DNA from: Kozakia baliensis
GTDB taxonomy: Bacteria > Pseudomonadota > Alphaproteobacteria > Acetobacterales > Acetobacteraceae
Reading direction: 5' to 3'
Assembly: GCF_001787335.1 (NCBI RefSeq)
Contig: NZ_CP014675.1
Span: forward strand, 62,001-126,000
DNA length: 64,000 bases
A program made the position numbers and the translations under genes. Within the stretch, counting starts at the first letter, position 1, and the number at the start of each line of letters is the position of its first letter. Shown one piece after another: positions 1,567-17,952 of the stretch. The notes beneath the pieces were generated by a model. It was not told where the DNA came from, made no database searches, and was given only the letters and a program-made list of their open reading frames with translations.

Positions 1567-1592
1567 CATGATGCGACCGAAAACTTTTTTTT
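1567..1592 (-). promoter_or_regulatory. GTCGCAT(C/G)ATG element, copy upstream of icmD
   Basis: Read on the minus strand: A8, seven bases (GTTTTCG), then GTCGCATCATG. It lies in the 98-bp gap between the traQ-like gene and icmD, about 52 bp before the icmD start. The same layout (A/T tract, seven bases, GTCGCAT) occurs at 3412, 6386 and 17286, and with a T tract at 8495. The GCAT-N-ATGC core is an imperfect inverted repeat, so an operator or a special promoter is likely; which one cannot be told from sequence. Confidence 0.6.
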
Positions 1593-1612
1593 CAGGACTG
1601 CCATTATTATTT

Positions 1613-2149
1613 TTAAGTGGGCCAATAACTGAGCAGCCAGGTGGCTTCTTTTTGCGGGTGCAGCAGCACCACACCGAAGGCGAACTGGAGAAAACAGCTC
1701 ATTTTGCCCCGGTTGGTCTTGCCGGTGTTGGAGGCGTGCCAAGCCAGGATGGCAAAGAAGGCGACCCAGGCGCCGAACATCTGAAAAAACAGGGCGAATT
1801 CACTGACGATCGTCAGGATGGCGTCTTTCGGGCCGGTGCCCGCGATCGGATCGACCGAACCGGTGTAACCGGTCGGCGACGCGCTGCTCAGCGACACGTC
1901 GATGTCGAGATTGGCCGACGTCGCCGATTTGGTCAGGATGCGGTCGAACGCCGCGAACACGCCGGCCAGCACGACCGAAAGGTAAGGCACCCAAGGCTTA
2001 CCCACATACGGGTTCTGGGGCTGGTGCTGCTGCCAAATCCCCCAGACGCCGGTGAAAAAACAATAGAACGCGGCCGCGTAGCAGGCCGCAGGCAGCACCC
2101 ACGCCATGGCGATCGCGATATCGTTGGTGAAGCTGACAAGTCCTTCCAC
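1613..2149 (-). CDS. TraQ / IcmC(DotE)-like inner-membrane protein
   Basis: 178 residues with a long hydrophobic segment at about 12-36, a second at 53-67 after a WQQHQPQNP loop, and a third at about 118-138; no signal peptide. Size, topology and position between dotF and icmD match TraQ of IncI plasmids and IcmC/DotE-type proteins of Dot/Icm systems, whose biochemical role is unknown. The start is GTG 2149, chosen because AGGAGG stands six bases before it. Only 13 bp separate it from the dotF stop, so it is in the dotF transcript. The assignment is mostly positional. Confidence 0.5.
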   Translation of the reverse strand: MEGLVSFTNDIAIAMAWVLPAACYAAAFYCFFTGVWGIWQQHQPQNPYVGKPWVPYLSVVLAGVFAAFDRILTKSATSANLDIDVSLSSASPTGYTGSVDPIAGTGPKDAILTIVSEFALFFQMFGAWVAFFAILAWHASNTGKTNRGKMSCFLQFAFGVVLLHPQKEATWLLSYWPT

Positions 2150-2162
2150 GATCGCCTCCTGT

Positions 2163-3365
2163 TCAGAGAATTTGGCCGTGATCGGTCTTGATCACCCAAT
2201 TGGTGCCCGACTGATAGATCGACTGCACGACCCCATAACCGCGCAGGTTGGCCCCAATCTGCACCTCGTATTGGGCAGGTTGACCTGCGGGAGCATTGTC
2301 GTCTTGCACCATCGCAAGCAGCGGCGACGCCGAGACGATCCGATAATGGGGCACCCAGCGGCGCGGCATGGGCGCGGGTTGGGGTGGCGGTATCTCTTGC
2401 GCCGGGATCGATGTCCTGCCGTCGACCGTTCGCCCATCGACGGTAGGTTGGGGCGACTGACTGCCCATCGCGGCCGCGAGCGCGCGCTTTGCGACCGCTG
2501 CGGCATTGTCACGGGCATGTTGGGGGGCATCCGCCGCATCGGACACTGCCTTCCGGGCTTCCAGCATGGCGAGCCGCCGGTTGAGGTCGGCCTCGTGCTG
2601 GAGCTCAGCTTGCCGGTCGTGCTGCATCTGCGCGCGCAGGGCGGCAACTTCGGCACGATCCTGCTGCACGAGGGCCGCTTCCATGGTGACCAGTTGGAGG
2701 ACGTCGACCTGGTCCTGTGTGGCCATCGGGGCGGCGACGAGACGGGCGGCGTCACGCGCCGCATCGGTCGGATGGGGGATGTCCGGCGCTGTGCCAGCAC
2801 GCGCGGGCGCCGCTTGAGCCGGTGTTGGTTTGCTGGCAGTGGGTGCGACGCTCGCATCGTGCGCCGTTGTGGGCGGGGCAGGTTGGGGGACGCTTGCCGG
2901 TTTCGGACCGAAAGCGAGCATGGCGTTCAGATCGGTGCCCGGCGCTGCCGATGGTGTCAGGACCGGTTGTGAAGAACGCGGCGCTTCCGCAGGGCGCGCG
3001 GAAGAAGACACGCGGCTGGTTTGCGGACGGCGGCTCGGGTTGGGGGCGGTGACCGGGGCCGTCATACCAGCTTCCTGTCCCACGGGCATCGGCGCGCGAT
3101 GAGGATAGATGACATAGCCGATCGTGCCCAGGACCAGCGCGCCCGCGGCGGCACCACCGAGAATAATTTTCCTTGTCGTGGCGGGGCGGGCGGTGTTGTC
3201 GACGTTGACAGAAGGCGATGCGGGCGGCTCTGACGCAGAGCCGCCGTCGGTGTCCCTTGGCGTGTTATCGGGCGGTGAAGGTGGAGAAGGCGTATGCAGC
3301 CGGCGCACCGTCGACGCTTCGCTCTGTGGATAGTCCGAATAATGTTGAACGGGTTCGGGAGACAT
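2163..3365 (-). CDS. dotF: DotF/IcmG (TraP)-like bitopic membrane protein
   Basis: 400 residues: a proline-rich cytoplasmic N-terminus, one membrane segment at about 66-87, a long Pro/Ala-rich linker, a charged coiled coil at about 216-275, and a conserved Gly-containing C-terminal patch (ANLRGYGVVQ and the last 20 residues). That is the layout of DotF/IcmG and TraP, inner-membrane proteins that contact the DotG channel. It lies directly after dotG, as in Legionella. A GTCGCAT(C/G)ATG element lies about 47 bp upstream, so it can probably also start its own transcript. AGGA is placed seven bases before ATG 3365. Confidence 0.7.
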   Translation of the reverse strand: MSPEPVQHYSDYPQSEASTVRRLHTPSPPSPPDNTPRDTDGGSASEPPASPSVNVDNTARPATTRKIILGGAAAGALVLGTIGYVIYPHRAPMPVGQEAGMTAPVTAPNPSRRPQTSRVSSSARPAEAPRSSQPVLTPSAAPGTDLNAMLAFGPKPASVPQPAPPTTAHDASVAPTASKPTPAQAAPARAGTAPDIPHPTDAARDAARLVAAPMATQDQVDVLQLVTMEAALVQQDRAEVAALRAQMQHDRQAELQHEADLNRRLAMLEARKAVSDAADAPQHARDNAAAVAKRALAAAMGSQSPQPTVDGRTVDGRTSIPAQEIPPPQPAPMPRRWVPHYRIVSASPLLAMVQDDNAPAGQPAQYEVQIGANLRGYGVVQSIYQSGTNWVIKTDHGQIL

Positions 3366-3411
3366 GGGGTGATCCTGCCCTTTGAGTTGCGAGAAGGACA
3401 GGATCGGCGGT

Positions 3412-3437
3412 CATGATGCGACCGAGCGCTTTTTTTT
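3412..3437 (-). promoter_or_regulatory. GTCGCAT(C/G)ATG element, copy upstream of dotF
   Basis: Minus strand: A8, GCGCTCG, GTCGCATCATG. The A tract overlaps the TAA stop codon of dotG (3438-3436), so the element is squeezed into the 70-bp gap before dotF. Same spacing between A tract and GTCGCAT (seven bases) as the copies at 1567 and 6386. Confidence 0.6.
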
Positions 3438-4659
3438 AGCGGGTCAGCGCCACGTTTTTCAGAAACATGACCCCGACATTGACATTCGCCGCCATGTTGA
3501 TGCGCGGCTGGGTCGGCATTTGCTGCATCATGGAGCTGTTGACTTGAGAGGCCGCGGCACCGGCCGCCACGCCGAGCTGCTGCGGGAAGTTCAGCTTCTG
3601 AACATAGTTCACGTTACCCAGTCCGCCGATGGAACCGACCGTGTTCGACGTCATCTCCAGCGCCGTGCCAAGACCCTGCACGAAAGCTGCCGCCGCCGGT
3701 AGCACGAAGCGTTGCAGATAAAGCTGGTCCACGCTTGACGCCACGGCCGCCTCCATGGTGTCCGGCGCCACGACGACGCCCTGCACCGGTAAGGTCTGCC
3801 CTTGATGTTCGATGCTTTGCACGGTGAGAACCAGACGGTTCATGTGTCCCCCGGCACGCGCGACGGAGGCAATCATACGATCTCCGGCGACGGGACCGGA
3901 ATCCGCCTCGAGCACGATTTGCCCGCTTAGGTCGCTGTTCGTGGCGGTGACGGTATGTGCAAAAATCCCACGTCCGGCCGGGATCAGAACGCGGGGAGCT
4001 GCGACAACCGACCCGGTCGCCGCCTGCGAGGGCACGGTGCCCGATTTATTCCCTTCCGCGTGCCCCTGTTGAGCGGCGCGCGCCGCCGTCATCTCTTTGA
4101 CCGAGTACATGATACTCGTCACCGGCGGGCGCCCGGCGAGGCCGTCCTTGAGATTTTGCAGTGCCGCCGCGTAGAGTTTCGCATGCTGTTTGACGGCATC
4201 CTGATCGACGGGAGCCGCCGCATAAGCGGGGGCCGTGGGCACAGGTGCGGGAGGCGGCGGCGTGTTGACGCTCGGACTGGCCGTATCGGCCGGCAACCGC
4301 TTGGCCATCCCGGCATCGGCGTCCGTTCCGACTTCCGTACCGCCCGGCGGTTTCGACGATGCGCCCGGCGCAATATCCGGGGTGTAGGAAGCGCCTGATT
4401 TCGCTGCCCGGGCGCTGGCATCGGCCATGTCCTGTTGGCGCAGCGCGTCCTGACGTGGATCGGTATTCGTGCCGCCGGGCAGTGGATTGACGGCGGGCGT
4501 GGTGCCCGCGATCGATTGCGGGTCTTCGCGTTTGCTGTTGCGCAAGCTGAAAACGAGAACGAGCGTAACGGCGAGGATCGCCACCCCTAACAGCGTCAAA
4601 ATGCGCCGATGCCCTCCCGCCGCCGCCTGTGTGAACGGGCTTTTGAGTTTAAAGGCCAT
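3436..4659 (-). CDS. dotG: DotG/IcmE (TraO) core-complex channel protein
   Basis: 407 residues from ATG 4659. A short basic N-terminus leads into one membrane segment (about 20-38), then a long Pro/Ala/Thr-rich periplasmic linker, and a conserved C-terminal half with VLIPAGRGIFAH, a GDRMIAS stretch and QSIEHQGQTLPVQG. These are features of the VirB10-like C-terminal domain of DotG/IcmE and TraO, which spans the periplasm and forms the outer-membrane channel with DotH. The linker is short: plasmid TraO and Legionella DotG usually carry more repeats. The start overlaps the dotH stop (TGATG), implying translational coupling. Confidence 0.8.
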   Translation of the reverse strand: MAFKLKSPFTQAAAGGHRRILTLLGVAILAVTLVLVFSLRNSKREDPQSIAGTTPAVNPLPGGTNTDPRQDALRQQDMADASARAAKSGASYTPDIAPGASSKPPGGTEVGTDADAGMAKRLPADTASPSVNTPPPPAPVPTAPAYAAAPVDQDAVKQHAKLYAAALQNLKDGLAGRPPVTSIMYSVKEMTAARAAQQGHAEGNKSGTVPSQAATGSVVAAPRVLIPAGRGIFAHTVTATNSDLSGQIVLEADSGPVAGDRMIASVARAGGHMNRLVLTVQSIEHQGQTLPVQGVVVAPDTMEAAVASSVDQLYLQRFVLPAAAAFVQGLGTALEMTSNTVGSIGGLGNVNYVQKLNFPQQLGVAAGAAASQVNSSMMQQMPTQPRINMAANVNVGVMFLKNVALTR

Positions 4660-5651
4660 CACTGCGCCTCCTTGATGCTGGCTGAGATCGTGCGTCCCGC
4701 ATCGGAGAGCAGCACGTAAGGAGTTTCGTGAAACGCGTAAATCGTGGTGCCGCCTTCGCCATGTTCGGAGCTGTCCCAGGCGGGTGTCATCAGCACAAGG
4801 CGCGTGCGCAGATACATCTCGTTGCCGATTTTCCAGGCGCGTACATCATCGGGCGATACGCCGTCGACCGATAGCGGTGTGGCCGCCGCCGGTGCAATAC
4901 CGCTCAGCATCGCGTTCATGAAAGGCTCGCCGGTCGCGGGTGCCCCCGGTCGCGTGTCGATCTGGACCTTCGCATTGGGGCCGGAACCGGCGACACGAAC
5001 CGTCAGGTTGTCGTCGTAAGAGCCGCGCCCTGCGATCAGCAGAAAGGAAATCGGCTTCGGCGCATCCTTGAGGGTGACGAGAAGACCTCCACGTGGCTGT
5101 AACGAAACCGGCTGGATGCTGATCGTGTTACTGCCTTGATAAGGGACGCACACATAGAACCCGGAAGTCTGGACGGCCGGCGCACCGACTTTGCCGTCAC
5201 CCTGACCCGAATTGCAGTTTGTGCCGCCGCTGGCGTTCGCGCTGTTGCCGTTCTGGTTCCAGGCGATCGGCCAGGGCTGACCGGTTGAGTCAACGAACGA
5301 CAGCGCCGTGGGATAGCCCTTGGTGGTGAAAATAATGCTTGTCTGCTGGCCCGGTTGAAACGAGACGCGAATGGCAGGGCGTACATTCGGCGTCGCCATT
5401 TCGGTCTGCACCGCTTCCTGCGCGCGGCTGACGTCCTTAAAGCGTGTCCCGAGCCGCATGATCGTCTCGGGTGTGAACGGGATGGCTTCGCGCTCGGCCT
5501 GTACCTGCGCTTGTTCGTCCGCGATCCGATTGGAATCGGAGGCGACGCCGTTCGGTGCCTGAGCGCTGGTTCCTTGCGTTTGGGCGGACGCGCCTTGCGC
5601 GAACGCCAGTAGGGCGAGCGGAAGAAACAGCAGGATTTGTCGCAGTTCCAT
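4659..5651 (-). CDS. dotH: DotH/IcmK (TraN) outer-membrane core protein
   Basis: 330 residues starting at ATG 5651, where a Sec signal peptide begins (MELRQILLFLPLALLAFAQG, cut after ASA at about 23). The mature part has a charged helix (IADEQAQVQAEREAI), then the family's beta-rich domain with RPAIRVSFQPGQQTSI and LVTLKDAPKPISFLL, and ends with a YVLLSDAGRTISASI strand. DotH/IcmK and TraN form the outer-membrane ring of the type IVB core with DotC and DotD. The start lies 4 bp after the dotI stop and the end overlaps the dotG start: dotI-dotH-dotG is one tight operon. A longer frame extends upstream but lacks the signal peptide at its front and overlaps dotI. Confidence 0.8.
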   Translation of the reverse strand: MELRQILLFLPLALLAFAQGASAQTQGTSAQAPNGVASDSNRIADEQAQVQAEREAIPFTPETIMRLGTRFKDVSRAQEAVQTEMATPNVRPAIRVSFQPGQQTSIIFTTKGYPTALSFVDSTGQPWPIAWNQNGNSANASGGTNCNSGQGDGKVGAPAVQTSGFYVCVPYQGSNTISIQPVSLQPRGGLLVTLKDAPKPISFLLIAGRGSYDDNLTVRVAGSGPNAKVQIDTRPGAPATGEPFMNAMLSGIAPAAATPLSVDGVSPDDVRAWKIGNEMYLRTRLVLMTPAWDSSEHGEGGTTIYAFHETPYVLLSDAGRTISASIKEAQ

Positions 5652-5655
5652 GGTC

Positions 5656-6291
5656 TTAACTCCGCGCTGGACCGACGACGAGTTGGCTGATCGCCAGACC
5701 GTCCGGATGATCAAGTTCCTCCACCCGGTCGATGACAGCCGTCGCCATGAGAGTCTGCGTGTTCTGCTGATTGACGTTTTCGCAGGTTTGGATGAAGGGA
5801 AACTGCACGACATACCGCATGTGACCGTTGACAATCTTTTGGTCGCGCACGGTCGCCGCGCGGGTCGGTTGCGCGAAGCACAGCAACTTCGCTTGCTTGA
5901 TTTTCGCGAGATTTCCTTGATCGATGAACGACTTGGCAAATGTGTTCCAACCGCTGATCAGATAATGCTGGCCCGCTACGTTCAATTGGATCGGATAGTC
6001 TCGATAGTTAATATTATAGGGCGCGATTGCCCATCGGATCGCCCAGGACAGCAATTGATCCTGCCCGACAATTGGGCTGTCGAGCGGCATTGCCGGACGT
6101 GGCGCGTTCTGCCCATCGATCCAGAAATATTTCGGTTGTGGCGGATGAATCCACACCACAGCGTCGTGCAGGACGAAAATCGCCAGCAGCACACTTTGAA
6201 CGATACACACAAGCAACGAGCGCTCGACAATGACACCCTGAAACTCAGGATCCGTCATACGACGTATCGTCGCACTGCTTCGGAGTTTCAT
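5656..6291 (-). CDS. dotI: DotI/IcmL (TraM) inner-membrane protein
   Basis: 211 residues from ATG 6291, which has GGGAGG five bases upstream; an in-frame start at 6321 lacks this. One membrane segment lies at about 26-47, followed by a periplasmic domain with YFWIDGQNAPRPAMPLDSP and LLSWAIRWAIAPYNINYRDY, typical of IcmL/TraM. The family forms an inner-membrane ring analogous to VirB8. It is the first gene of the dotI-dotH-dotG operon, and a GTCGCAT(C/G)ATG element lies about 95 bp upstream. Confidence 0.8.
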   Translation of the reverse strand: MKLRSSATIRRMTDPEFQGVIVERSLLVCIVQSVLLAIFVLHDAVVWIHPPQPKYFWIDGQNAPRPAMPLDSPIVGQDQLLSWAIRWAIAPYNINYRDYPIQLNVAGQHYLISGWNTFAKSFIDQGNLAKIKQAKLLCFAQPTRAATVRDQKIVNGHMRYVVQFPFIQTCENVNQQNTQTLMATAVIDRVEELDHPDGLAISQLVVGPARS

Positions 6292-6385
6292 GACGGCCTC
6301 CCGATGAGGCGGACACTCCAAAGATAACTCTCACCGACCATGGCTCTGTCCTCTTTGCTGGATACTCTGGCCAGTCTGCTCGGCG

Positions 6386-6409
6386 ATGATGCGACCGAAT
6401 GCTTTTTTT
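6386..6409 (-). promoter_or_regulatory. GTCGCAT(C/G)ATG element, copy upstream of dotI
   Basis: Minus strand: A7, GCATTCG, GTCGCATCAT, then CGCC in place of the usual G. It lies between the end of the putative regulator (6437) and dotI, about 95 bp before the dotI start, and is the natural promoter/operator site for the leftward dot operon. Lined up by eye with the copies at 1567 and 3412. Confidence 0.6.
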
Positions 6410-6436
6410 GCCGTTACCTGCGCATTTTTAAAGATG

Positions 6437-7333
6437 TCACGCTGCCAGCGCGTAAGCGTCGGCGCTCCCGCGTGCGGCGGCCGTCGCCTTGAAGCGCTTG
6501 CTGATGCGACGACCCGAGCGACGCTCCGTCCAAAAATGCGCATTGTCCATCGCCGTGCATTTGCGGCGCACCAGCTTATGTTCCGCGATATAGGAGAGCG
6601 CGTCCGCCATCACGTAGTAGCGCGTCCGCGTCCGCGTGCCTTCCGGGCTGCATTCTTCGAAGCTCGCATGTGAGCGCACGGCGTGCGGGCTCACAAGAAA
6701 TTCGGCGGCGATCATGCGGTGCGCCTGACGCGCAAAGTACCGATGGGCTACCTCGATGCGCGCCGCGTCGTTCCAGTGGACCTTGTTGCTTTTTTCCATG
6801 GCGGTCAGGGTCGCCTGGCTGATCGTATTGCGAAGATACCAGGTCCGTCCACGACGCTCCACCGCACTCAATGTCGACGCCTGTGCCCAGGACAGAACGG
6901 TATCGTTGCCGAGTACAAGCGCCGCTTCGCGAACCTCATTGAGGTGCGCGACCACCATCGCTTTGGAGCATTGCTGACGGCACGGCAGTCCGAAGGCTCT
7001 TCGTTTCGCCGAAACGCTTGAGCGGGAACGACGAAGGGTCTTGGCGATCGTTTTGGTCAGCTCGCCAGCGTGCCACATCTGGCCGAGAATGGTCAGTTCC
7101 CGGTGAGACCAGGATCCTTTGTCCTTGGGTTGAGCGTACCCCGACATAATGGGCGCTTCGGGCCATGCGTCGAGATGAGCCGCCACCGCCAGGGTGCGCA
7201 GCCCTAAAAGGGTTGCGACGAGATCGATATCCCTGACCCGTTTTAACAGCCGCCTGACCATCGACGCATCGGCGACATGCTGGATCCAATTACGTTGTCC
7301 GTGAGCAATAACGACACTGTCATGAGAAATCAT
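6437..7333 (-). CDS. Putative DNA-binding protein with GcrA/SANT-like helices
   Basis: 298 residues, no membrane segments. Residues 74-118 (SWSHRELTILGQMWHAGE, then IAKTLRRSRSSVSAKRRAFGLP) resemble the W-x(n)-L-x-LW-x-G-x-S-x-x-IA-x-x-L-x-x-S-RSAV-x-x-K pattern of GcrA and of small Myb/SANT helix-turn-helix proteins. A second, weaker copy follows at about 187-226 (WNDAARIEVAHRYFAR, IAAEFLVSPHAVRSH). The family role is unknown to me; a regulator of the adjacent transfer operon is my inference from position. GAGGTGA precedes ATG 7333. It lies 146 bp upstream of dotI, with the repeated element between them. Confidence 0.5.
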   Translation of the reverse strand: MISHDSVVIAHGQRNWIQHVADASMVRRLLKRVRDIDLVATLLGLRTLAVAAHLDAWPEAPIMSGYAQPKDKGSWSHRELTILGQMWHAGELTKTIAKTLRRSRSSVSAKRRAFGLPCRQQCSKAMVVAHLNEVREAALVLGNDTVLSWAQASTLSAVERRGRTWYLRNTISQATLTAMEKSNKVHWNDAARIEVAHRYFARQAHRMIAAEFLVSPHAVRSHASFEECSPEGTRTRTRYYVMADALSYIAEHKLVRRKCTAMDNAHFWTERRSGRRISKRFKATAAARGSADAYALAA

Positions 7334-7561
7334 CTGACGTCACCTCAATAGGATGAAGCCAATCACTGTAGGTTATTTTTAAAAAGGTCAACAGAAATAT
7401 TAACTACGTAAAGCATCTATTCCAAGTGGAATGTATCTCACATTGCGCCAGAACGTTGATGGCGCGCGCCTACCGGCCTTATCCATGGATAGAAAAGGCA
7501 ATCAAAGTTCTCGTGATGATTGGCTTGGGAATACGGAAAAGTAGACGCACTCAGCGTCAGT

Positions 7562-8374
7562 TTACGACGCTCGTGTGCCCATAATGACGTCGTGGATATG
7601 CTCGCAAGCGACAAAGAGATCACCAATCTGTTCGCGATGTCGCGATGCCGTCAACGAGGCCGCCCGCAATTGGAGGGCCAGATGATTGAGGTGAGCTTCC
7701 CGAGAGTTTGAGAAAAGGAAGGCGCACTCAACCTTCAGAGCTTCCGCGATCTCGTAGGCGGTTAGCAGAGACGGGTTACGGATACCGGCCTCAATCGAAA
7801 TGATCGCCCCTTCGCCGATTGTTGAGTTGGCTCCCAGATGATGGATCGGAATGCCTCGAGCGATCCGCAAGCTCTGCACGCGACGACCAAACACTTGTGT
7901 GGAAGCAAGCGTGTCATTGATGATGATATTGTTCTTTCGCTCGCCGGGAATAAATGGCTCGGCGATCTCGGGTTGCCCATCCGCGACAAGCGAAATGTTT
8001 TCGAGAATTACCGCGAGGCTTTTCAAATGCTCAGCCGCAGCGGTGAGACCATCGGCTATGCGGACCATTTTCTGCTCTGCGATTGCAGGAATTGGTTCCG
8101 GTAAAGGCTCGATCGGTCCTCCATGAGGGGGCAGAAGCTGCTCCGCATCTAAACCATAGGCGTCGAGAAGCATAAGAACAGAGCTTACCGAAAATGGAAC
8201 CCCCTTCTCGACGTTCTTTAATGTCGAGATCTTGATTCCCGTGAGCCTGACTGCTTTCGCAACTGTTAGATTCAAAAACTGACGACGTTCGCGGAACACT
8301 GCCCCGAGTTTTGTATAAAGAGCGTCATCGACAAATAGCTTCTTGCAAGCCTGCTCCACCGCTACTTTTTTCAT
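7562..8374 (-). CDS. XRE-type regulator with two helix-turn-helix domains
   Basis: 270 residues. The N-terminal part (about 22-75: VFRERRQFLNLTVAKAVRLTG, ISTLKNVEKG, SVLMLLDAYGLDAEQLL) is a Cro/C1-type helix-turn-helix. A second one lies at about 160-215 (RVQSLRIARGIPIHHLGANS, ISIEAGIRNP, LTAYEIAEALKVECAFLF). Two such domains in one chain are unusual and suit binding to paired or palindromic sites. It is divergently oriented to the DotD-like gene, with one copy of the repeated element in the shared 180-bp gap, which makes it a candidate regulator of the transfer region. The ribosome site is weak. No ligand domain is visible between the two HTHs. Confidence 0.65.
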   Translation of the reverse strand: MKKVAVEQACKKLFVDDALYTKLGAVFRERRQFLNLTVAKAVRLTGIKISTLKNVEKGVPFSVSSVLMLLDAYGLDAEQLLPPHGGPIEPLPEPIPAIAEQKMVRIADGLTAAAEHLKSLAVILENISLVADGQPEIAEPFIPGERKNNIIINDTLASTQVFGRRVQSLRIARGIPIHHLGANSTIGEGAIISIEAGIRNPSLLTAYEIAEALKVECAFLFSNSREAHLNHLALQLRAASLTASRHREQIGDLFVACEHIHDVIMGTRAS

Positions 8375-8494
8375 ATCACACCGCTAATTCCACACAGGCA
8401 TAAATAACCTTCTCCGAGAGAAGGACGCGCCACAATAGTGCGACGCTACGATCTGACAATGACTATGCGTTTCGGGCAAAACGACGACACACTG

Positions 8495-8522
8495 TTTTTT
8501 TTGTGCGGCATCGCATGATGCG
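8495..8522 (+). promoter_or_regulatory. GTCGCAT(C/G)ATG element, copy upstream of DotD-like gene
   Basis: Plus strand: T8, seven bases, then ATCGCATGATGCG. Here the CGCAT-G-ATGCG inverted repeat is perfect. It lies about 33 bp before the start at 8555 and in the divergent gap facing the double-HTH gene. The tract is T rather than A, but the seven-base spacing to TCGCAT is kept. Confidence 0.6.
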
Positions 8523-8554
8523 CCGCGATCATGGTCTCCTGACAGGAGATCATC

Positions 8555-9013
8555 ATGCTTGCCGCCCTTCTTTTTCCGCTCCTTGCGCATCCTCACCCGA
8601 TTGAGGGAGTGCGCCCGGTCAGCGTTGAGCTGGCGTCGTTTCAGATCGTCCAGCATTCGGCCGCTTTGCCGTCGCCGCACCCTCAACCTGTGCCGATCCC
8701 GCGCAAAACGAATGCGCAGCCCGACGAAGCTCCAAAGCCCGCAGGGGGATTGGGGGGGCATTTCCGGGTGGCGACTGGCTTTGGGCATCGCGTTCCACTG
8801 GGGTTCGCCGTGCGCCAGATCGTTCCGCGCGGTGTTAAAATCACATTCGGTCCTGACACTGATCAGGCCCAACCCGTCGATTGGCAGGGAGGTCGAACGT
8901 GGAACCGCGTCCTTGCGACCACCGTCGCCCAGTGCGGCTACCGGATCGATGTCGGCCACAACCAAGTCGCGATCCTGCAACAAAATCGTCGCCCGTCGCA
9001 TGATGGGGCGTGA
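8555..9013 (+). CDS. DotD/TraH-like exported protein with secretin N0-like domain
   Basis: 152 residues with a hydrophobic start (MLAALLFPLLAHP) that probably serves as a signal peptide, a Pro-rich linker, then a small domain at about 80-140: VPLGFAVRQIVPRGV, a QPVDWQGG turn, and VLATTVAQCGYRIDVGHN. This resembles the N0/N1-like fold of secretins, TcpQ/PilL proteins and DotD. DotD (TraH) forms the outer-membrane core with DotC and DotH, so a DotD role would fit the operon, but I see no lipobox, which DotD normally has. AGGAG lies six bases before ATG 8555. First gene of the rightward transfer block. Confidence 0.45.
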   Translation: MLAALLFPLLAHPHPIEGVRPVSVELASFQIVQHSAALPSPHPQPVPIPRKTNAQPDEAPKPAGGLGGHFRVATGFGHRVPLGFAVRQIVPRGVKITFGPDTDQAQPVDWQGGRTWNRVLATTVAQCGYRIDVGHNQVAILQQNRRPSHDGA

Positions 9014-9040
9014 TCTTGGACCGAAATGGGAGGTCGCACG

Positions 9041-9942: not shown

Positions 9943-11111
9943 TGGCGATGCGACACTCCGTGCTGCTTGCGGCCGGCACCTGCCTCCTGACCGTCTCCCT
10001 GACACCGCCGCGTGCCTACGCTTTCGGAGAAGCCGCGGTGGTCTTCGCGATCCAGGCGCTTCAAAGTTTCATGGGCAAGCAGCTCGACAACCTTGGGACG
10101 AATATCACGAACAGTCTAAATGACATGACGAACCCGAATTCGGTCGCATCGCTCATTCGTGACAGCGCGACCCAGTCGGCGAATTATTCGAAAGGTCAGG
10201 TGGCGGCCCAGTCCCGTATCGCAGATGCGTCCAACACGTCTATGGCGACCTTTCTACGCCAGCAGCACGATACCGACATTCGCGACGAACATACGATGAA
10301 CCCCGAGTTCTGCGCAGGGCTCGACGCGCAACAGGCGACCATGGCGGCCGCGAAATCGTCGAGATCCGCTCTCGGCGCCATCACCACGGTTACGGATCCA
10401 CGCGGGGAAGCGGAACAAGGAACGCCGTCCTATTACGGCCGGTCCCAGGGCGTCACCGCCAATTCCGATCTGCATCTGCGTCGCTACTGTTCGCAAAGCG
10501 ATGCCGCCGCGGGTCTCTGCACCAGCGTATCGCGCCTGCCGAACGCCGACCAGCGTGCCGCGTCGCTTTTTGCGACCGACACGTTGACGGCCGATGGCTC
10601 GGTTGATGCGGCAAACGATTATGGAACGACCTTGATCCAACCGGTCGCGCCCGCGGCGCTCCGTGGCGACCAGGCGACCAGCACCCTTGGCCGGGAGGCC
10701 ATGTTGGAGCGACGCTCCTACAACGCCCGCATGTCGCTCGCGCGCTGGATCATGGCGTTTATTACGTCCCTCGAAACACCGTCCGTGTCGCTGACCGGTG
10801 CGCAGAAAACGGAAATGCAGGCCGAGGGCCTCCAGCCTCTCGAGAAGGCATCGTGGCTTCAAGCCGTCAGCCTCGAAGTCAACCGTCGCGTCTCGAACGT
10901 GCAGTGGAACGCCAACTTGCAAACCATGGCGCCAGCTTCCGTCGAGCGCGAAATCGCGACCGAACTCGCCCTATCGAATTACCTCGCGATGCAAAACTAT
11001 CGCCTTGGGCTCTATCAATCCTCGATTGGCGCAACGCAGGTCGCTCAGAGCGAAGAGCGGAAACAGCAAAAGACGCTGACCGCCATGCCTTCTCCTACGA
11101 TCAACCCGTAA
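9942..11111 (+). CDS. Exported protein, possible TraW/IcmX-like component
   Basis: 389 residues from ATG 9942, which overlaps the previous stop (TGATG). A signal peptide comes first (MAMRHSVLLAAGTCLLTVSL, cut after AYA near 26). The rest is helical and Gln/Ala/Ser-rich with four spaced cysteines and no membrane segments. Position before traY and the exported helical nature suggest TraW of IncI plasmids, but I see no decisive motif. A longer in-frame extension upstream to 9681 is rejected: it overlaps the upstream gene and would bury the signal peptide. Confidence 0.55.
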   Translation: MAMRHSVLLAAGTCLLTVSLTPPRAYAFGEAAVVFAIQALQSFMGKQLDNLGTNITNSLNDMTNPNSVASLIRDSATQSANYSKGQVAAQSRIADASNTSMATFLRQQHDTDIRDEHTMNPEFCAGLDAQQATMAAAKSSRSALGAITTVTDPRGEAEQGTPSYYGRSQGVTANSDLHLRRYCSQSDAAAGLCTSVSRLPNADQRAASLFATDTLTADGSVDAANDYGTTLIQPVAPAALRGDQATSTLGREAMLERRSYNARMSLARWIMAFITSLETPSVSLTGAQKTEMQAEGLQPLEKASWLQAVSLEVNRRVSNVQWNANLQTMAPASVEREIATELALSNYLAMQNYRLGLYQSSIGATQVAQSEERKQQKTLTAMPSPTINP

Positions 11112-11130
11112 CAACACGGAGAACACGCCG

Positions 11131-12456
11131 ATGTCCGAAACCATGGAACAGGCCGCCAGTCTACGAAATGTCACAGCCTATCTCGACCGTGTCGTCGATG
11201 AGGTTCGCCGGGTGCAACCGGCGGTTGCCGCGAATTTCGAAACGCTGAAACGCGAGATGTCTTCCGCGCCCAGCGGTGCGGAACCCGATCACCTGCACAC
11301 GCGCCTTGCCTTCGCGGTTCAGGATTTCACGCGCGCGGTTGGCGACGTGCTGCCAGCGTCGCATCCGCTTCGTGACGAAATGACTCGGCGCGCTACGACG
11401 ATGGATGGCCTGCACGACCCGGAAATCGCGGGGTTCCTGAAACAGACTTCGGCGATCCGGGATCAGAACGTCGTCAATAAAATTCGCGATGTTGCGCAAG
11501 ATGTCGCACATGGCGGATTGGACGCCAACCATCCCGACATCGCTTTTGCTGTCGACCGTATTCGCGAGGCGCTGCAGAAAAGCCCGGGGTCGAGCCAGGA
11601 GCAGGCGCGCGTGCACCGCTCTCCCGGCGGAGGCGATACTTCTCAGGACCGCGATCGTCAACCGAACGAGCGGCCAGCCGGCGCTGAAGCGTCGCAGCGC
11701 GCCAACGCGGGAAAACCGCGCCCCGGAGCAACCGATGATCCACAGCAGGGGCAGGACAATCATTCGCCACAACCTGAACCGCCGCAACCCGAAAAGATGA
11801 CGGTCGCCGCGGCGGCCGTGAATGGCTTCTCCCGCTTCGCGTCGGCGCTCGCGACGCGTATCGAGGGCCAGCCACGGAACGTCACGCCTTCCTGGTTCGA
11901 TCGGGCGATGGAGCAGACCAACGCTAGAACCGCGGCCCGGGCGGAGCGCGATATGGATGCGACCGCGCAGCTTGGCTCCGAGGCTGTGGAGGCGATGCGC
12001 AATCTCAGGTCCGGACCCGGCTCATCGATCATGGCGGCGATCCACGACGCGGCGGGCAACGACCCGGACGGCGTGCGCGGCGTCTTATCCCAGATGAAGC
12101 CGGGCGGTCGCTACGAGACGTTGCATTCGCAGCTTACTTTGGAGAAGTCTTCGAACCGCGAGTTCGCCCGCCAGTTCGAGGAGGCCGCATCCAAGGTCGA
12201 GGCTTACGGGAAAGGGCGCGAAGCGGCTGACCAACTCGGCGTCCAGCTCAAAACCTCGACCCGAGTGGAGCAGCGCTTTGCGCAGATCGACGCGCAGGTT
12301 GGGGCGGAAGCCGCTGCGCTTCCAGGGCGCAAACCTGGCCAAAGCATGCTCGAGGACATGACCGAGAAGGCTCAGGAGGCCGTCAAGAAAGCCATCGAGT
12401 TGCTCCAGAAAATTTTCCGCCCTGCTCCTTCGAGCGGTCCCTCCATGTCGCCCTGA
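11131..12456 (+). CDS. Unknown soluble protein, charged and partly disordered
   Basis: 441 residues, no signal peptide or membrane segment. A helical N-terminal domain (1-150) is followed by a Pro/Gln/Asp/Arg-rich linker (about 155-225) and a second helical, glutamate/alanine-rich domain (about 230-430). The sequence ends in a basic Pro/Ser tail. It starts 19 bp after the previous gene and 17 bp before dotA. It could be a cytoplasmic adaptor or even a translocated substrate of the type IVB machine; nothing in the sequence decides this. I do not recognise the family. Confidence 0.55.
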   Translation: MSETMEQAASLRNVTAYLDRVVDEVRRVQPAVAANFETLKREMSSAPSGAEPDHLHTRLAFAVQDFTRAVGDVLPASHPLRDEMTRRATTMDGLHDPEIAGFLKQTSAIRDQNVVNKIRDVAQDVAHGGLDANHPDIAFAVDRIREALQKSPGSSQEQARVHRSPGGGDTSQDRDRQPNERPAGAEASQRANAGKPRPGATDDPQQGQDNHSPQPEPPQPEKMTVAAAAVNGFSRFASALATRIEGQPRNVTPSWFDRAMEQTNARTAARAERDMDATAQLGSEAVEAMRNLRSGPGSSIMAAIHDAAGNDPDGVRGVLSQMKPGGRYETLHSQLTLEKSSNREFARQFEEAASKVEAYGKGREAADQLGVQLKTSTRVEQRFAQIDAQVGAEAAALPGRKPGQSMLEDMTEKAQEAVKKAIELLQKIFRPAPSSGPSMSP

Positions 12457-12473
12457 GAAAGCGGAATTTCCTC

Positions 12474-14921: not shown

Positions 14922-14936
14922 TGGCTGGAGGCCGAC

Positions 14937-15308
14937 ATGTCTGAAGAAGGAATGGGAGGCTGGGCTGGCTACATGCTCGGTCGGGCATCAGCTGAGCAGG
15001 ATGCGTTCATGGCGCGTCAGCGCCAGATCATCCACCGCATGTTCAATCGGCCACCGGACGATGACGGTCACGAGGCTCTAAAGCGAGAAGCTCTCAGAGC
15101 GTGCGACGTCATTGATCGTCTTGACGCCAAGCTGGACGAGGTGAAGGCGCAGCTCGCGGCTGAGAAGGAGCGCACGGCGCAACTCGAAGCAGAGTTAGCG
15201 GCAGAGCGCGAGCGATCGGCAAAGCTCTACCGTGATCGTGAGCGCTCGGCAGCCCTCTATCTCGAAGCCGCGGCAAAGCGCAGGCGCGATTACGAAAATC
15301 GCCAGTAG
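14937..15308 (+). CDS. Small coiled-coil protein downstream of dotA
   Basis: 123 residues from ATG 14937 with GGAGG six bases upstream and 15 bp after dotA. The N-terminus is Gly-rich (MSEEGMGGWAGYMLGRAS). From about 50 onward it is one continuous charged coiled coil with repeated AELAAERERSAKLYRDRERS-type heptads. No membrane segment. I do not recognise it; small coiled-coil proteins after traY often act in entry exclusion or assembly, but that is only a guess here. Confidence 0.55.
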   Translation: MSEEGMGGWAGYMLGRASAEQDAFMARQRQIIHRMFNRPPDDDGHEALKREALRACDVIDRLDAKLDEVKAQLAAEKERTAQLEAELAAERERSAKLYRDRERSAALYLEAAAKRRRDYENRQ

Positions 15309-15310
15309 TC

Positions 15311-15322
15311 GGTCGCATCATG
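15311..15322 (+). promoter_or_regulatory. GTCGCAT(C/G)ATG element, copy upstream of lipoprotein gene
   Basis: Plus strand GGTCGCATCATG, directly after the stop of the coiled-coil gene and 37 bp before the lipoprotein start at 15360. The A tract is reduced to AAAA and lies further upstream than in other copies. Confidence 0.5.
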
Positions 15323-15359
15323 GGCCTTCAAAGTTGTTTCCATCACGATGGAGATAACG

Positions 15360-15668
15360 ATGAAGGCCTTTTCTTTTTTTCCGCTCGCCCTGCTGCTCTC
15401 GCTTGCGGCTTGTGACAGCGGCAACGTGCAATCGACCGCCCATCTGCACGGCCCCAAGCCCCCCAAAATGCGCAATGCCCATTACGATCCGAACAGCGCC
15501 TATGCGTCCGAGAGGGCCACGTGGGCACCTCCGGTCTTCGATCGGAATGGAACGATCGTAAAGCCGTCCGATCCGCGGAACGACACTGGACGCGAGGATT
15601 ATGAGCACGCCAAATGGGCGACCGGGGCACAGGGAGGAGATCGCAACGCGCCGCCCGGCACGTTCTAA
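15360..15668 (+). CDS. Small lipoprotein of the transfer region
   Basis: 102 residues from ATG 15360 (GGAG six bases upstream; another in-frame ATG lies at 15348). A lipoprotein signal peptide MKAFSFFPLALLLSLAAC places the lipid-modified cysteine at residue 18. The mature part is hydrophilic, rich in Pro, His and Asp, with an NAHYDPNSAYASERATWAPP segment. The family is not recognised. Type IVB systems have outer-membrane lipoproteins (DotC, DotD), but this one is too short for DotC and has no secretin-like domain. It has its own repeated element upstream and a terminator 17 bp downstream, so it is probably a single-gene transcript. Confidence 0.6.
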   Translation: MKAFSFFPLALLLSLAACDSGNVQSTAHLHGPKPPKMRNAHYDPNSAYASERATWAPPVFDRNGTIVKPSDPRNDTGREDYEHAKWATGAQGGDRNAPPGTF

Positions 15669-15684
15669 CGTTTCGTTCGCCGGA

Positions 15685-15708
15685 GAGGGCCGCGTGGCCC
15701 TCTTTTTT
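15685..15708 (+). terminator. Rho-independent terminator
   Basis: Perfect 7-bp stem GAGGGCC / GGCCCTC (15685-15691, 15696-15702) with a GCGT loop, followed by six T. It lies 17 bp after the lipoprotein stop and just before the convergent gene's stop, so it ends the rightward transcript. Confidence 0.85.
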
Positions 15709-16252
15709 ATGGCTTGCGGGGAAAGAGAGAATCGCTCTCGTGAAGAAATTGCCGCAGCGACGCAACGCGGCGTGTGCGCAACTGCCAGTTCAGCGAGCAG
15801 TTATGCAGCGAGATATACCCCAACATGACTAGAAATGGCACGAACTCGAAGGCTGCGAGCACGCGGCTTCCCGTCCAATGCCCGAAAATCATCTCGATCG
15901 ACCAGAGCACGAAAAGCACAAGATCTAACGCAGCGGCTGAGACAGCTGTCATATAGGTTTCGCGCTGCCGTCGTCGCACCAGTGCGATGAACGCCTGTTC
16001 GTCCAACCCAATGAACCGGGCCTTGGAGCGAAGATCGGCGCGGAGCGGTTCAAAGGACACGATCGCCGCGTCGCCAGTGCGATGCCGGTCTCGAAACAGG
16101 TTCCAGAGAGCCTCGATAAAGTTAAACCCGCTCGCCAACGAGCGCCAACCGACGGCATCGGCGGGCGTTCCTGTAACTTTTCTCATGGCATGCGCCGCGC
16201 GAGCGATCAAACCACCTTTGTCATTTTTGTCGCTGGGCTGCCGGTCGCTCAT
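15707..16252 (-). CDS. TraX/IcmV-like membrane protein
   Basis: 181 residues: about 100 cytoplasmic residues containing GWRSLASGFNFIEALWNLFRD and a charged FIGLDEQAFIALVRRRQRETY helix. Two adjacent membrane segments follow (about 103-121 and 130-149), then a C-terminal tail with LNWQLRTRRVASLRQFL. The two-helix hairpin and the FI-x-x-LW motif resemble TraX of IncI plasmids and IcmV of Legionella, but the match is by eye. Its start overlaps the stop of the DsbC-like gene (ATGA, 16252-16249), so the two are translationally coupled and under the element at 17286. Confidence 0.5.
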   Translation of the reverse strand: MSDRQPSDKNDKGGLIARAAHAMRKVTGTPADAVGWRSLASGFNFIEALWNLFRDRHRTGDAAIVSFEPLRADLRSKARFIGLDEQAFIALVRRRQRETYMTAVSAAALDLVLFVLWSIEMIFGHWTGSRVLAAFEFVPFLVMLGYISLHNCSLNWQLRTRRVASLRQFLHESDSLFPRKP

Positions 16253-17247
16253 TGCGTGAGGCTCCGGATGAACCCGTCGATATCTTGCGGATTTCCCTCA
16301 TAGCGACCGACTGTGCCGCGCGCCGTCGTCCATAGAAAGGTGGGCGTGCCCTTGAGCCCAATTTGTCGTGCGAGGTTACTATTCTGGGCGAGCTGGACTG
16401 TAGCATCGTCGCTCGGGCGGTCGACACGGATGTTGAGGCGGTTGTTTATCCAAGCGCTCGCCATTTCGCTTTCGGGAAATGACAGCATGGACTTGGCATA
16501 TTGGGTGCTTTCCCCGCGATCCTCATAATCCAGCAACGAGAGAGGGACGATTTTTAAACGAAGACGGCCGGCCTGGACGGCGGGCATCAGCGCGTGGATC
16601 GACTTAATGGAATACACGCACTGAGGATCGATCAGCATCGTGGCTTCCGGTGCTCCGGTCTGTCCGATCGCGCCGCCATGCAGCGACGAAAGAGCGACTT
16701 TCGTCGCTTCGCGCGTCTCCGGCGTGTCGATCGCGATCGTCGGCACCGCGCCGGGCACGGACTTGATCTGGGACCGGGTCACGTCCTTGCCGTCAGCATC
16801 CCAAAGCGAACCGGCAATGGCCGCCTGGTGATCGGGTGTGTCGTAGATGACCTGAAAGCGGGTGCCGTTTTGCACGAACATCCCTCGTATGCCGCGATAG
16901 GGCGCCAGATCATGGACGCGATCACCCGCCAACCTGTGCAACGTGTCGTAGGGCACCGGGATGACGGTTCCGCCGAGCAACGCTGCATGATCACTGGGGG
17001 TGTAGTAGACGAAAAGTTGCTGTCCGGTATGGGCCACACCCGACTCATAACCATGAACAGGCGCGACCTGAAGAATTTGTGCACCCGACGCAACGACCCG
17101 CTTTAGGGCATCATGAGATCCCGCAGGAAGAGTATCGGCCTCCATCGGGACGGGTTTGCCGAGACCGGTCGGTTGCACAGCACATTGCTGAGCGAGCGCA
17201 GGGGTGACGAGCCAAGCCATTAAGGTTAGCGGAAAAACAAGACGCAC
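16249..17247 (-). CDS. Periplasmic DsbC/TrbB-like thioredoxin-fold protein with CVYS active site
   Basis: 332 residues, GTG start with GGGAGG upstream. A signal peptide (MRLVFPLTLMAWLVTPALAQ) precedes an N-terminal domain with VFVQNG-type and LWDADGKDVTRSQIK strands, as in DsbC/DsbG. From about 200 a thioredoxin-fold domain follows: MLIDPQCVYSIKSIHAL carries the active site and LKGTPTFLWTT the cis-proline loop. Known DsbC proteins have CxxC; here the site is CVYS, so the second cysteine is missing. IncI TrbB is a related thiol isomerase needed for transfer. A one-cysteine site would favour a trapped or isomerase-only reaction. Partners may be the Cys-rich exported proteins of this block. Confidence 0.7.
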   Translation of the reverse strand: MRLVFPLTLMAWLVTPALAQQCAVQPTGLGKPVPMEADTLPAGSHDALKRVVASGAQILQVAPVHGYESGVAHTGQQLFVYYTPSDHAALLGGTVIPVPYDTLHRLAGDRVHDLAPYRGIRGMFVQNGTRFQVIYDTPDHQAAIAGSLWDADGKDVTRSQIKSVPGAVPTIAIDTPETREATKVALSSLHGGAIGQTGAPEATMLIDPQCVYSIKSIHALMPAVQAGRLRLKIVPLSLLDYEDRGESTQYAKSMLSFPESEMASAWINNRLNIRVDRPSDDATVQLAQNSNLARQIGLKGTPTFLWTTARGTVGRYEGNPQDIDGFIRSLTQ

Positions 17248-17285
17248 GATGATTCCCTCCCTTGTCGGGAACCACCGCTACCGGA

Positions 17286-17310
17286 GCATCATGCGACGGT
17301 ACGCATTTTT
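17286..17310 (-). promoter_or_regulatory. GTCGCAT(C/G)ATG element, copy upstream of DsbC-like gene
   Basis: Minus strand: A5-T, GCGTACC, GTCGCATGATGC. The copy lies inside the end of the 118-residue gene: its GTCGCATGA gives the last two codons and the stop of that gene. It stands about 40 bp before the DsbC-like start. Confidence 0.6.
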
Positions 17311-17645
17311 CTTGTTCGTGCGGAAATATAGGACCAGTTCGAGGGCAAATCACCATCGATCTCGGCCGGTAGGTAGTCTTTGACGTCTTGCAAAAACGCA
17401 GCGACGATCATTTTCTCCCTTCGGGAACCGGTTTTGGATTTGGTTGCCAGAACATCGAGGGCATGGGACCAGTCACGATAAGGGCAGTGACCGTCAAGCG
17501 TAAGGGCACTATCATAGGACGGTCCGTAAAATGAGCGCCTTACACAATTCTTGAGCGCTCGTGCGGATGGCCCGACCGTTTCGTTTCCTGTCCAAGGCAA
17601 AATGACACGATCCACGGCGGCAAATGCGACACACAATGAAAACAT
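17289..17645 (-). CDS. Unknown small exported protein
   Basis: 118 residues from ATG 17645, chosen because GGAGGGG lies eight bases upstream and a short signal-like hydrophobic stretch (MFSLCVAFAAVDRVIL) follows. An in-frame start at 17789 would run through a copy of the repeated element, so I reject it. The mature part has cysteines at NCVRRS and DGHCPYRDW and a basic C-terminus. Family unknown. It is the first gene of the leftward trio with the DsbC-like and TraX-like proteins, 41 bp before the next gene, and may be a substrate of the former. Confidence 0.5.
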   Translation of the reverse strand: MFSLCVAFAAVDRVILPWTGNETVGPSARALKNCVRRSFYGPSYDSALTLDGHCPYRDWSHALDVLATKSKTGSRREKMIVAAFLQDVKDYLPAEIDGDLPSNWSYISARTRKMRTVA

Positions 17646-17770
17646 AGCGTATACCCCTCCAAAGCACCCCGCAGCGCGGGTGAAACCTCCGTGTTCTGCG
17701 TCCGCAGATATGTCATGTGCAGGGTTTTGTTTTCCGAATTTGCGGAACGCTACGAACTGTATCTCGCCGT

Positions 17771-17781
17771 CATCATGCGAC
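17771..17781 (-). promoter_or_regulatory. GTCGCAT(C/G)ATG element, copy upstream of the 118-residue gene
   Basis: Minus strand GTCGCATGATG, about 126 bp before the start at 17645. No A or T tract at the usual spacing; only the core is kept. It lies in the divergent gap facing gapR. Confidence 0.45.
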
Positions 17782-17891
17782 TGGATCAATGAATAAATGC
17801 TAATGAAGATTCACAACAACGTGAGGCTTAAACTTGCCTTCTGAGCCTGTTGATCTTCTCCCGTTCTGTATCCGTCATAAGCGCCCGAATC

Positions 17892-17916
17892 TTTTCCTTT
17901 TGCGTCGCATGATACG
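17892..17916 (+). promoter_or_regulatory. GTCGCAT(C/G)ATG element, copy upstream of gapR
   Basis: Plus strand: TTTTCCTTTTGC, then GTCGCATGATACG, 36 bp before the gapR start. One base differs from the perfect CGCAT-G-ATGCG repeat. With the copy at 17771 it makes a divergent pair. Confidence 0.5.
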
Positions 17917-17952
17917 TCGGCACGGTATCCGAACCATGAGAAGGAATTCACC

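Follow-up and report, generated by a model that had tools for sequence, protein, structure and literature searches.

A repeated TCGC box probably marks a dedicated promoter class for type IVB conjugation genes on alphaproteobacterial plasmids

What is the function of a short element that recurs upstream of genes, in the orientation of those genes, across the type IVB (T4B) conjugation block of a plasmid? We examined this question for a 64,000-nucleotide stretch of Kozakia baliensis DNA (the window; C2:62001-126000) from a seven-contig, 3.5-Mb genome whose chromosome, C1, is 2.89 Mb. The best match to the first 18.5 kb of the window, where the element GTCGCAT(C/G)ATG is found, is a Kozakia baliensis plasmid (94% identity over 28% of the query). 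Comparison of this region with related and distant plasmids leads us to favor one answer, which we consider rather probable: the element, here called the TCGC box, would be what is recognized in a sigma70-type class of promoters dedicated to the T4B (MPF_I) conjugation genes and some other backbone genes of a family of alphaproteobacterial plasmids.

The element is a real repeat, as the initial annotation had proposed. There were six exact copies of GTCGCATSATG (S, C or G) in the window, compared to 0.10 ± 0.30 in 100 dinucleotide shuffles, none of which reached six, and all six copies fall within 1.5-18 kb. When two mismatches were tolerated, the window count was ordinary (63 vs 53.6), and loose matching was unusable for this reason. 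Eight copies had been reported, and each has a core (1567, 3412, 6385, 17287 and 17771 on the minus strand; 8510, 15312 and 17904 on the plus strand), those at 6385, 8510 and 17904 with one mismatch to GTCGCATSATG. Several positions had to be corrected: 6386, 17286 and 15311 were off by one, and 8495 and 17892 mark the T-rich stretches that precede the cores at 8510 and 17904. An exact copy at 8995-9005 (plus strand), in the end of the open reading frame (ORF) 8555-9013 and ahead of the next gene, had been overlooked. The boxes of the window, with the -10 elements described below, are as follows.

1567..1577, minus strand: TCGC box GTCGCATCATG; -10 candidate 1555-1560 (TCCGAT, without A-11), predicted transcription start site about 1548, start codon ATG 1514.
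3412..3422, minus strand: TCGC box GTCGCATCATG; -10 at 3400-3405 (GATCCT), predicted transcription start site about 3393, start codon ATG 3365.
6385..6395, minus strand: TCGC box GTCGCATCATC ahead of DotI (identified by Pfam PF11393); -10 at 6373-6378 (CAGACT), start uncertain, ATG 6291 used.
8510..8520, plus strand: TCGC box ATCGCATGATG; -10 at 8527-8532 (GATCAT), predicted transcription start site about 8539, start codon ATG 8555.
8995..9005, plus strand: TCGC box GTCGCATGATG; -10 at 9012-9017 (GATCTT), start codon ATG 9041.
15312..15322, plus strand: TCGC box GTCGCATCATG; -10 at 15329-15334 (CAAAGT), predicted transcription start site about 15341, start codon ATG 15360.
17287..17297, minus strand: TCGC box GTCGCATGATG ahead of a DsbG-like gene; -10 at 17275-17280 (TAGCGG, without T-7), start codon GTG 17247.
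17771..17781, minus strand: exact box without a -10 at the shared distance, an outlier and perhaps a non-member; the start codon used lies 136 nt from the start of the box.
17904..17914, plus strand: TCGC box GTCGCATGATA ahead of gapR; -10 at 17921-17926 (CACGGT), start codon ATG 17953.
17953..18225, plus strand: GapR (DUF2312) homologue with the box promoter upstream (PF10073, 8.2e-30).

The distance from core end to start codon, with the starts as used, is 34 to 125 bases, in agreement with the 33-126 bp given previously. The promoter at 3412 has an orthologue in stretches L051 (19317), L052 and L056, and the exact box at 17771-17781 is also kept in Kozakia. Other details of the initial annotation were narrowed. 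An A/T tract lies exactly seven bases ahead of the core in four copies (1567, 3412, 6385 and 8510) and not five; at 17287 the tract ends 8 bases ahead of the core. Stop codons lie inside or near the element at four copies: 17287 (a TGA inside the core), 3412 (a TAA in the A tract), 15312 (TAG 6 bases ahead) and 8995 (TGA at +16). The inverted repeat, CGCATGATGCG at 8512-8522, is present and is peculiar to that site, not class-wide.

The main evidence for a promoter is a second signature at a fixed distance from the box. Sites from C2, C3 and C5, and from Kozakia, Komagataeibacter, Acetobacter and Gluconobacter plasmids, were aligned with the first base of each box as the anchor. Sites were called by a simple start-codon and Shine-Dalgarno rule, not by a gene finder, and the 99 called rows were reduced to 60 by removal of near-identical ones and to 50 after 10 (coding or implausible) were dropped by eye. 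There was an A at +18 in 45 and a T at +22 in 46 of the 60 deduplicated sites. In the curated set the A was present in 42/50, the T in 44/50 and both in 37/50, compared to 10/50 at the best other offset between +11 and +39. An A and a T four bases apart, A-11 and T-7, are the best-kept positions and the hallmarks of the sigma70 -10 element. With A+18/T+22 numbered as A-11/T-7, the box spans -29 to -19 and transcription is predicted to start near +29. The core TCGC then lies at -28 to -25, with 12 bp between it and the -10; the start codons used are at +44 to +57 in 42 of the 50 sites, and an A/T tract is found near -42 to -37 in the dialect of acetic acid bacteria (AAB). A -35 consensus was not seen in either pooled set (the 50 curated sites and the distant sites described below), and TTGACA is replaced by T-rich sequence.

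The same distance was found far from the window. In 15 distant T4B loci, TTCGC upstream of genes, with no -10 presupposed, was followed by A+18/T+22 at 95 of 217 sites, compared to 16/217 at the next offset and 5.9% elsewhere. The logo of distant sites is conditioned, since its sites were picked for [GT]TCGC plus a -10. In 26 stretches with the block (including L099, which is without T4B genes), 174 of 1071 occurrences of TCGC upstream of ORFs had the -10; the corresponding number in control DNA (nine stretches of C1, C4, C6 and C7) was 8 of 237. The earlier proposal of a dedicated regulon operator or of a promoter for a plasmid factor is thus supported in its promoter form by a fixed -10 signature in separate lineages.

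This geometry also bears on two other ways in which the box might be read. One is that the box serves as an operator lying across the promoter, between -35 and -10, where a repressor keeps the transfer genes off. Transfer genes are often repressed and a site in the spacer is compatible with steric repression; however, neither pooled set has a -35 consensus, so RNA polymerase would need help, and an operator has no need of a one-way box at a single distance from the -10. We think a repressor operator unlikely. The one-way orientation, and the dialects without a palindrome, also speak against the palindrome as the key feature of the element, and a palindromic operator was rejected because the other dialects are non-palindromic. 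The other possibility is that box and -10 form one bipartite recognition sequence for an alternative host sigma factor, with no plasmid factor. Against this, 12 bp from TCGC to the -10 is too short for a usual -35/-10 pair, and A-11/T-7 are sigma70 hallmarks. Moreover, no exact match to box plus -10 occurs on the chromosome, the dialects follow plasmid lineage, and Sigma70_r2 had no match (E≤0.1) on C2, C3 or C5, compared to four on C1 and one on C4. An alternative host sigma factor therefore seems very improbable, and a plasmid-encoded one was rejected because of the lack of Sigma70_r2 on C2, C3 and C5. Sigma70_r4_2 gave 26 matches, and the three over the cut-off are on C1 and C4.

The sequence of the box varies by lineage (AGTCGCAGAT, RTTCGC, TCACA) and its distance to the -10 is constant. 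The gene order of the T4B block is kept on plasmids of Acetobacter, Komagataeibacter, Novacetimonas and Gluconobacter (PLSDB type MPF_I), and also in Methylocapsa and Methylocella, which belong to another bacterial order and are untyped by PLSDB. Ahead of the same genes, Gluconobacter has the box AGTCGCAGAT and the two Beijerinckiaceae have ATTCGCGC or GTTCGCGC, each with NANNNT at the same distance. To avoid circularity, we ran a heptamer scan that presupposes only a -10 plus an ORF with a Shine-Dalgarno sequence; its p-values are uncorrected. In 23 of 32 sequences the top word was the box or a piece of it at the corresponding offset. Among stretches L090-L103, found solely through the regulator protein described below, it was the top word in 13/13 that carry T4B genes (uncorrected p 2e-5 to 1e-18). 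In 20 further clade-1 stretches found through TraY (L177-L196), some of which are apparently the same replicons as L049, L058 and L059 and so not all independent, a TCGC-type box was the top heptamer in 15/20, counting the core variant GTTTGCA of L194. The more divergent T4B loci of clade 2 (L157-L174, also found by TraY; several stretches end at contig ends) have the dialect N[TC]CACA. In these 18 loci A+18/T+22 followed 35 of 113 sites, compared to 9/113 at the next offset and 6.6% elsewhere; at least three sites were present in eight loci, one or two in seven, and none in three. In L157, L159, L161 and L164 the TCACA-dialect box ahead of DsbG is accompanied, by eye, by an inverted second copy upstream (e.g., TGTGAGTGC...GCACTCACA), a feature of this dialect upstream of DsbG that is unlike the TCGC dialects.

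Within the window's genome, exact matches to the box with its -10 are confined to three contigs, C2, C3 and C5, which together amount to 375 kb. Exact GTCGCATSATG occurs 26 times genome-wide (C1 1, C2 14, C3 10, C5 1) and the reversed control has none. The combined pattern GTCGCATSWTG-N7-A-N3-T occurs 25 times (C2 12, C3 11, C5 2), with no match on C1, C4, C6 or C7. Thus, the equal density in random DNA that the initial annotation had named as its refutation was not found. With one mismatch there are 25 more matches (C1 12, C2 7, C3 4, C4 1, C5 1). The statement that no copy lies outside 1.5-18 kb holds for the window; more copies are present elsewhere on C2, and on C3 and C5. Nor is the element restricted to the transfer block: on the related Kozakia plasmid, boxes are also found ahead of a BRO-family gene, the DotD/TraH gene, and a gene directly upstream of the MobF relaxase. 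In a family-wide search of 200 genomes with the AAB dialect, the window's genome had 13 matches and two others had one each; since matches occur in only three of 200 genomes, this dialect is local. Judged by sequence, the element is part of a promoter class that is specific to these plasmids within the genome and kept over large distances. We also considered a chance or repeat-driven word, or a nucleoid or partition site unrelated to transcription. GapR is encoded nearby and some plasmids scatter partition sites, but the shuffles, whole-genome counts, gene orientation and fixed distance to the -10 leave this explanation a negligible probability.

Under the favored promoter reading, a plasmid-encoded activator would bind the box and substitute for the missing -35 contact of the host sigma70 RNA polymerase, a role resembling that of MotA at T4 middle promoters. 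According to PMC2988021, the MotA box of these promoters replaces the -35 and lies 12 ± 1 bp from a sigma70 -10. The plasmid box is similar in standing in place of the -35, with 12 bp between core and -10, and in having a T/A-rich part ahead of the core. It differs in box sequence, in its alphaproteobacterial plasmid setting, in its lineage dialects, and in that the AAB box runs on to -19. By analogy, the layout would work like sigma appropriation; membership in the MotA class is not claimed. The genes driven (DotA/TraY, DotG, DotH, DotI, DotD/TraH) belong to the same machinery as in MPF_I/IncI-like type IVB systems, and we found no transfer promoter class, regulon or master activator like these described in the open-licence literature. 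We consider it likely, from the sequence patterns, that a dedicated plasmid-encoded box-binding activator exists.

In many box promoters there is a further layer: the 5' arm of an inverted repeat overlaps the -10, and its 3' arm includes the Shine-Dalgarno sequence. Most of the 5' arm would be missing from an mRNA begun at +29. Three such repeats are in the window; folding energies are given from the box side and then from the predicted transcription start site.

3371..3405, minus strand: inverted repeat, proposed translation lock; 5' arm 3394-3405 overlaps the -10, 3' arm 3371-3382 contains the Shine-Dalgarno sequence; leader fold -18.8 vs -6.1 kcal/mol.
8522..8565, plus strand: inverted repeat over the -10 and the Shine-Dalgarno/ATG, proposed translation lock; -18.3 vs -0.6 kcal/mol.
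15323..15368, plus strand: long inverted repeat across the -10, Shine-Dalgarno and ATG, proposed translation lock; -28.6 vs -1.8 kcal/mol.

We exchanged positions +11 to +28 among 133 deduplicated promoters (of 149 sites, some of them false) and refolded each segment with the downstream leader. The own pairs summed to -2371 kcal/mol, compared to -1752 ± 33 for permuted pairs (z -19; 0 of 5000 permutations as low), and 47 of the 133 promoters were better than 95% of their swaps. Segments further upstream gave z values of -0.6, -1.6 and -3.4. The complementarity of the box-to-start stretch to the Shine-Dalgarno sequence of the same gene is statistically strong. The mean unpaired probability from Shine-Dalgarno to ATG was 0.32 when folded from the box vs 0.58 from the predicted start (n = 47), 0.33 vs 0.55 in the distant set (n = 98), and 0.45 vs 0.55 for control starts from the chromosome and C4 that were cut alike (n = 161). 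In 11 of 14 traY leaders (L100, L101 and L102, with stems in another register, were left out) the stem has four pairs changed on both sides, with a covariation score reached in 0 of 500 shuffles, although related sequences can exceed shuffles without structure.

These patterns suggest a read-through lock, which we think somewhat more probable than its absence. An mRNA that reads through from upstream would fold and hide the Shine-Dalgarno sequence, and an mRNA begun at the box promoter would lack the 5' arm and be translated; transfer genes would then be expressed only once their own promoters fire. The best precedents, as analogies, are T4 gene e and B. subtilis sigG. PMC3014915 describes late promoters of gene e in the region of the 5' strand of a hairpin that hides the Shine-Dalgarno in read-through mRNA, and PMC5942855 describes a similar hairpin in read-through sigG mRNA that is absent from mRNA of the gene's own promoter. 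As in T4 gene e, soc, 49, I-TevI and sigG, bases upstream of the start (here a predicted one) pair with the gene's own Shine-Dalgarno. Those locks are on single genes; the one proposed here is predicted only, with complementarity that is found repeatedly throughout a promoter class and in several lineages of plasmids.

Some observations weigh against the promoter reading. Position -12 is C or G, not T, in 31/50 and 91/108 sites. The top heptamer was not the box in 9 of the 32 sequences (L049, L050, L058, L084, L085, L087, L088, L089 and L099). Most of these misses are Komagataeibacter-type stretches, and box parts rank lower in L084, L085 and L087-L089. Likewise, the top heptamer was not a TCGC-type box in L177, L180, L181, L187 and L195; L181 and L187 have boxes by eye that are no top heptamer, and L195 possibly has a TTTC-core dialect. 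The signature also varies with the hairpin: A+18 was present in 30/31 AAB sites with a hairpin (T+22 in 26/31) and in 7/12 without one. Because of this drop the promoter and hairpin layers are not fully separable, and part of the A+18 signal may stem from the hairpin.

The hairpins, strong and conserved over the Shine-Dalgarno, had first suggested an RNA motif, and it could be that box and hairpin form an RNA leader element, transcribed from a start further upstream and sensing something. This gives no reason for a rigid, single A+18/T+22 in several lineages, and T+22 is kept in 12/12 hairpin-less sites even though A+18 falls. An Rfam scan of five sources, the window and four other stretches, gave no match at any of the sites; elsewhere its only matches were ALIL and two fluoride riboswitches. 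The RNA motif was rejected as the identity of the element, since the rigid bases at +18 and +22 place the 5' arms over the -10, and we consider a sensing leader quite improbable.

Which protein would read the box? Two regulators encoded in the middle of the block are candidates.

6437..7333, minus strand: GcrA-like protein A1, 298 aa, favored as candidate reader; its gene has no detected box upstream.
7562..8374, minus strand: XRE-type regulator A2, 270 aa, adjoining A1, rival reader; HTH_3 and HTH_31.

Sequence comparisons make the GcrA-like protein A1, with multiple helix-turn-helix (HTH) motifs, the likeliest activator, at a little better than even confidence. The A1 profile matched solved GcrA (PDB 7ye1) at E 0.0012; among the sequences aligned for this profile was one L054 protein chosen in error, which was exchanged in the later A1-family alignment (A3). 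By hhalign, the A1 profile aligned to the GcrA alignment with probability 96.4 over 53 columns (the DNA-binding domain only), compared to 5.7 for A2. The window's A1 alone is not a Pfam GcrA match; 4 of 9 A1-family members match at E≤1 (best 1.4e-5). By sequence, A1 is GcrA-like and not a GcrA. According to PMC7403470, GcrA contacts region 2 of sigma and helps open complexes to form at selected sigma70 promoters. A1 shares the GcrA-type DNA-binding HTH; unlike GcrA, it is longer, the HTH is internal (about residues 74-126) and not N-terminal, and the sigma-interacting domain was not detected; a different sigma contact is conceivable. MotA and AsiA domains were not among the Pfam matches of A1 or the window's A2, and no search aimed at them was made. 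GcrA targets methylated GANTC; the consensus boxes contain no GANTC, and A1 is a candidate reader only. By eye, the GcrA-like proteins (L053:15362-16255 and others) have further HTH-like repeats, a second in most and a third in Gluconobacter.

The distribution of A1 is consistent with a role as reader. In stretches L084-L103, 19/20 carry dot/icm core genes, in the same order by coordinates, and A1 is present in 19/19 of these T4B loci, which were found through A1. Both A1 and A2 are present in 19/20 of L177-L196. A box was absent upstream of the A1 gene in 21/24 loci and of the A2 gene in 22/24, as expected if both stand above the regulon.

It is also possible that the same promoter class is read by A2, alone or with A1. 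A2 adjoins A1 in clade-1 T4B blocks and has two HTH domains, and C3 carries A2, half the block and boxes, but no A1. However, XRE proteins usually read palindromes and dialects other than that of AAB are non-palindromic. Furthermore, the 18 clade-2 stretches yielded no homologue of A2 (E≤1e-4), and several of them carry a box at the shared position; A2 could still be present there in very divergent or unlinked form. A GcrA-like ORF was found in 9 of these 18 stretches, and L157, L158, L159 and L161 combine a TCAC-type top heptamer at the shared offset and a GcrA-like match with no detected XRE protein. Because of these four loci, it appears that the box can exist without A2. A reading by A2 is, in our estimate, improbable.

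Several findings count against A1 as the reader. The C-terminal sigma-interacting domain of GcrA was not detected in A1, for which hhalign aligns the DNA-binding domain only, and the AlphaFold model of A1 is poor (pLDDT 50.6), too poor to support a fold search. Five of the nine clade-2 loci with a GcrA-like match gave no significant heptamer; of these, L164, L167 and L168 have one N[TC]CACA site each and L165 and L174 have none. Conversely, L171 has three such sites and no GcrA-like match was found. Box and A1 divergence are correlated (partial r 0.153, p 0.042; 23 loci) to about the extent seen with DotG (0.147, p 0.027), and co-divergence was rejected as proof that A1 reads the box, since it is indistinguishable from shared descent and no stronger than for DotG. 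L099 encodes a GcrA-like protein, and the contig stretches read have no TTCGC-type and only three GTCGC-type matches. This protein (L099:10040; G203:C3) has a weak A2-like neighbor, and no T4B gene was found in the stretches read. Finally, Kozakia pKB16680_1 keeps boxes without A1 or XRE, in a set of records from which those nearest the window's genome were possibly left out. We read this absence of A1 as a recent loss, because an IS21 pair occupies the site of the missing block center.

A GcrA-like match at E≤1e-15 was found only on C2 in the window's genome, and neither the GcrA-like gene nor DotG, DotH or DotI had a match on C3. The boxes of C3 must be served from C2 if A1 is the reader. 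A broader scheme follows the same lines, and we offer it tentatively, as somewhat less probable than its alternatives together. In it, a GcrA-derived activator would appropriate sigma70 at -35-less TCGC-box promoters as the portable transcription code of a whole lineage of type IVB plasmids, most promoters would carry the lock, box and reader would drift together into insulating dialects, and C3 and C5 would respond to C2 in trans. If so, the co-drifting dialects would be mutually foreign and would insulate coexisting plasmids, transfer genes would be silent at the RNA and protein levels until the activator acts, and the partial plasmid C3 and small plasmid C5 would answer the C2 activator. 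If the promoter reading is true, it would provide a defined regulatory code (promoters, regulon and candidate master activator) for alphaproteobacterial type IVB conjugation, and an equivalent on plasmids of the sigma appropriation of T4, in which the DNA-binding part is of GcrA type. It would also provide many natural dialects for studying box/reader co-evolution. The recurrent lock would show that a rule established for individual genes (T4 e, sigG) can extend to an entire class of promoters. Acetic acid bacteria have industrial uses, and a plasmid-borne activator with orthogonal dialects could serve as an expression tool.

Other features of the replicons were noted. C3:40975-50811 (L011) carries the right arm of the transfer block in near-identical form, with the TraY side, DsbG, GapR and XRE. 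In Kozakia pKB16680_1 (L045:8756-11081), the IS21 pair (istA, istB) stands in place of the block center (XRE, GcrA-like, DotI/H/G and TraY), and the boxes are kept. C5 (L015, 18.6 kb) has two divergent box promoters, at 11480 and 11827, and encodes an RPA-type replication gene, an SNF2-type helicase, a NOV_C protein, a resolvase and a C5 cytosine methylase. The ALIL pseudoknot is on C3 (L013, 1241-1357, minus strand), and the two fluoride riboswitches are divergent on C2 (L001), at 5570-5635 (minus strand) and 5813-5873 (plus strand).

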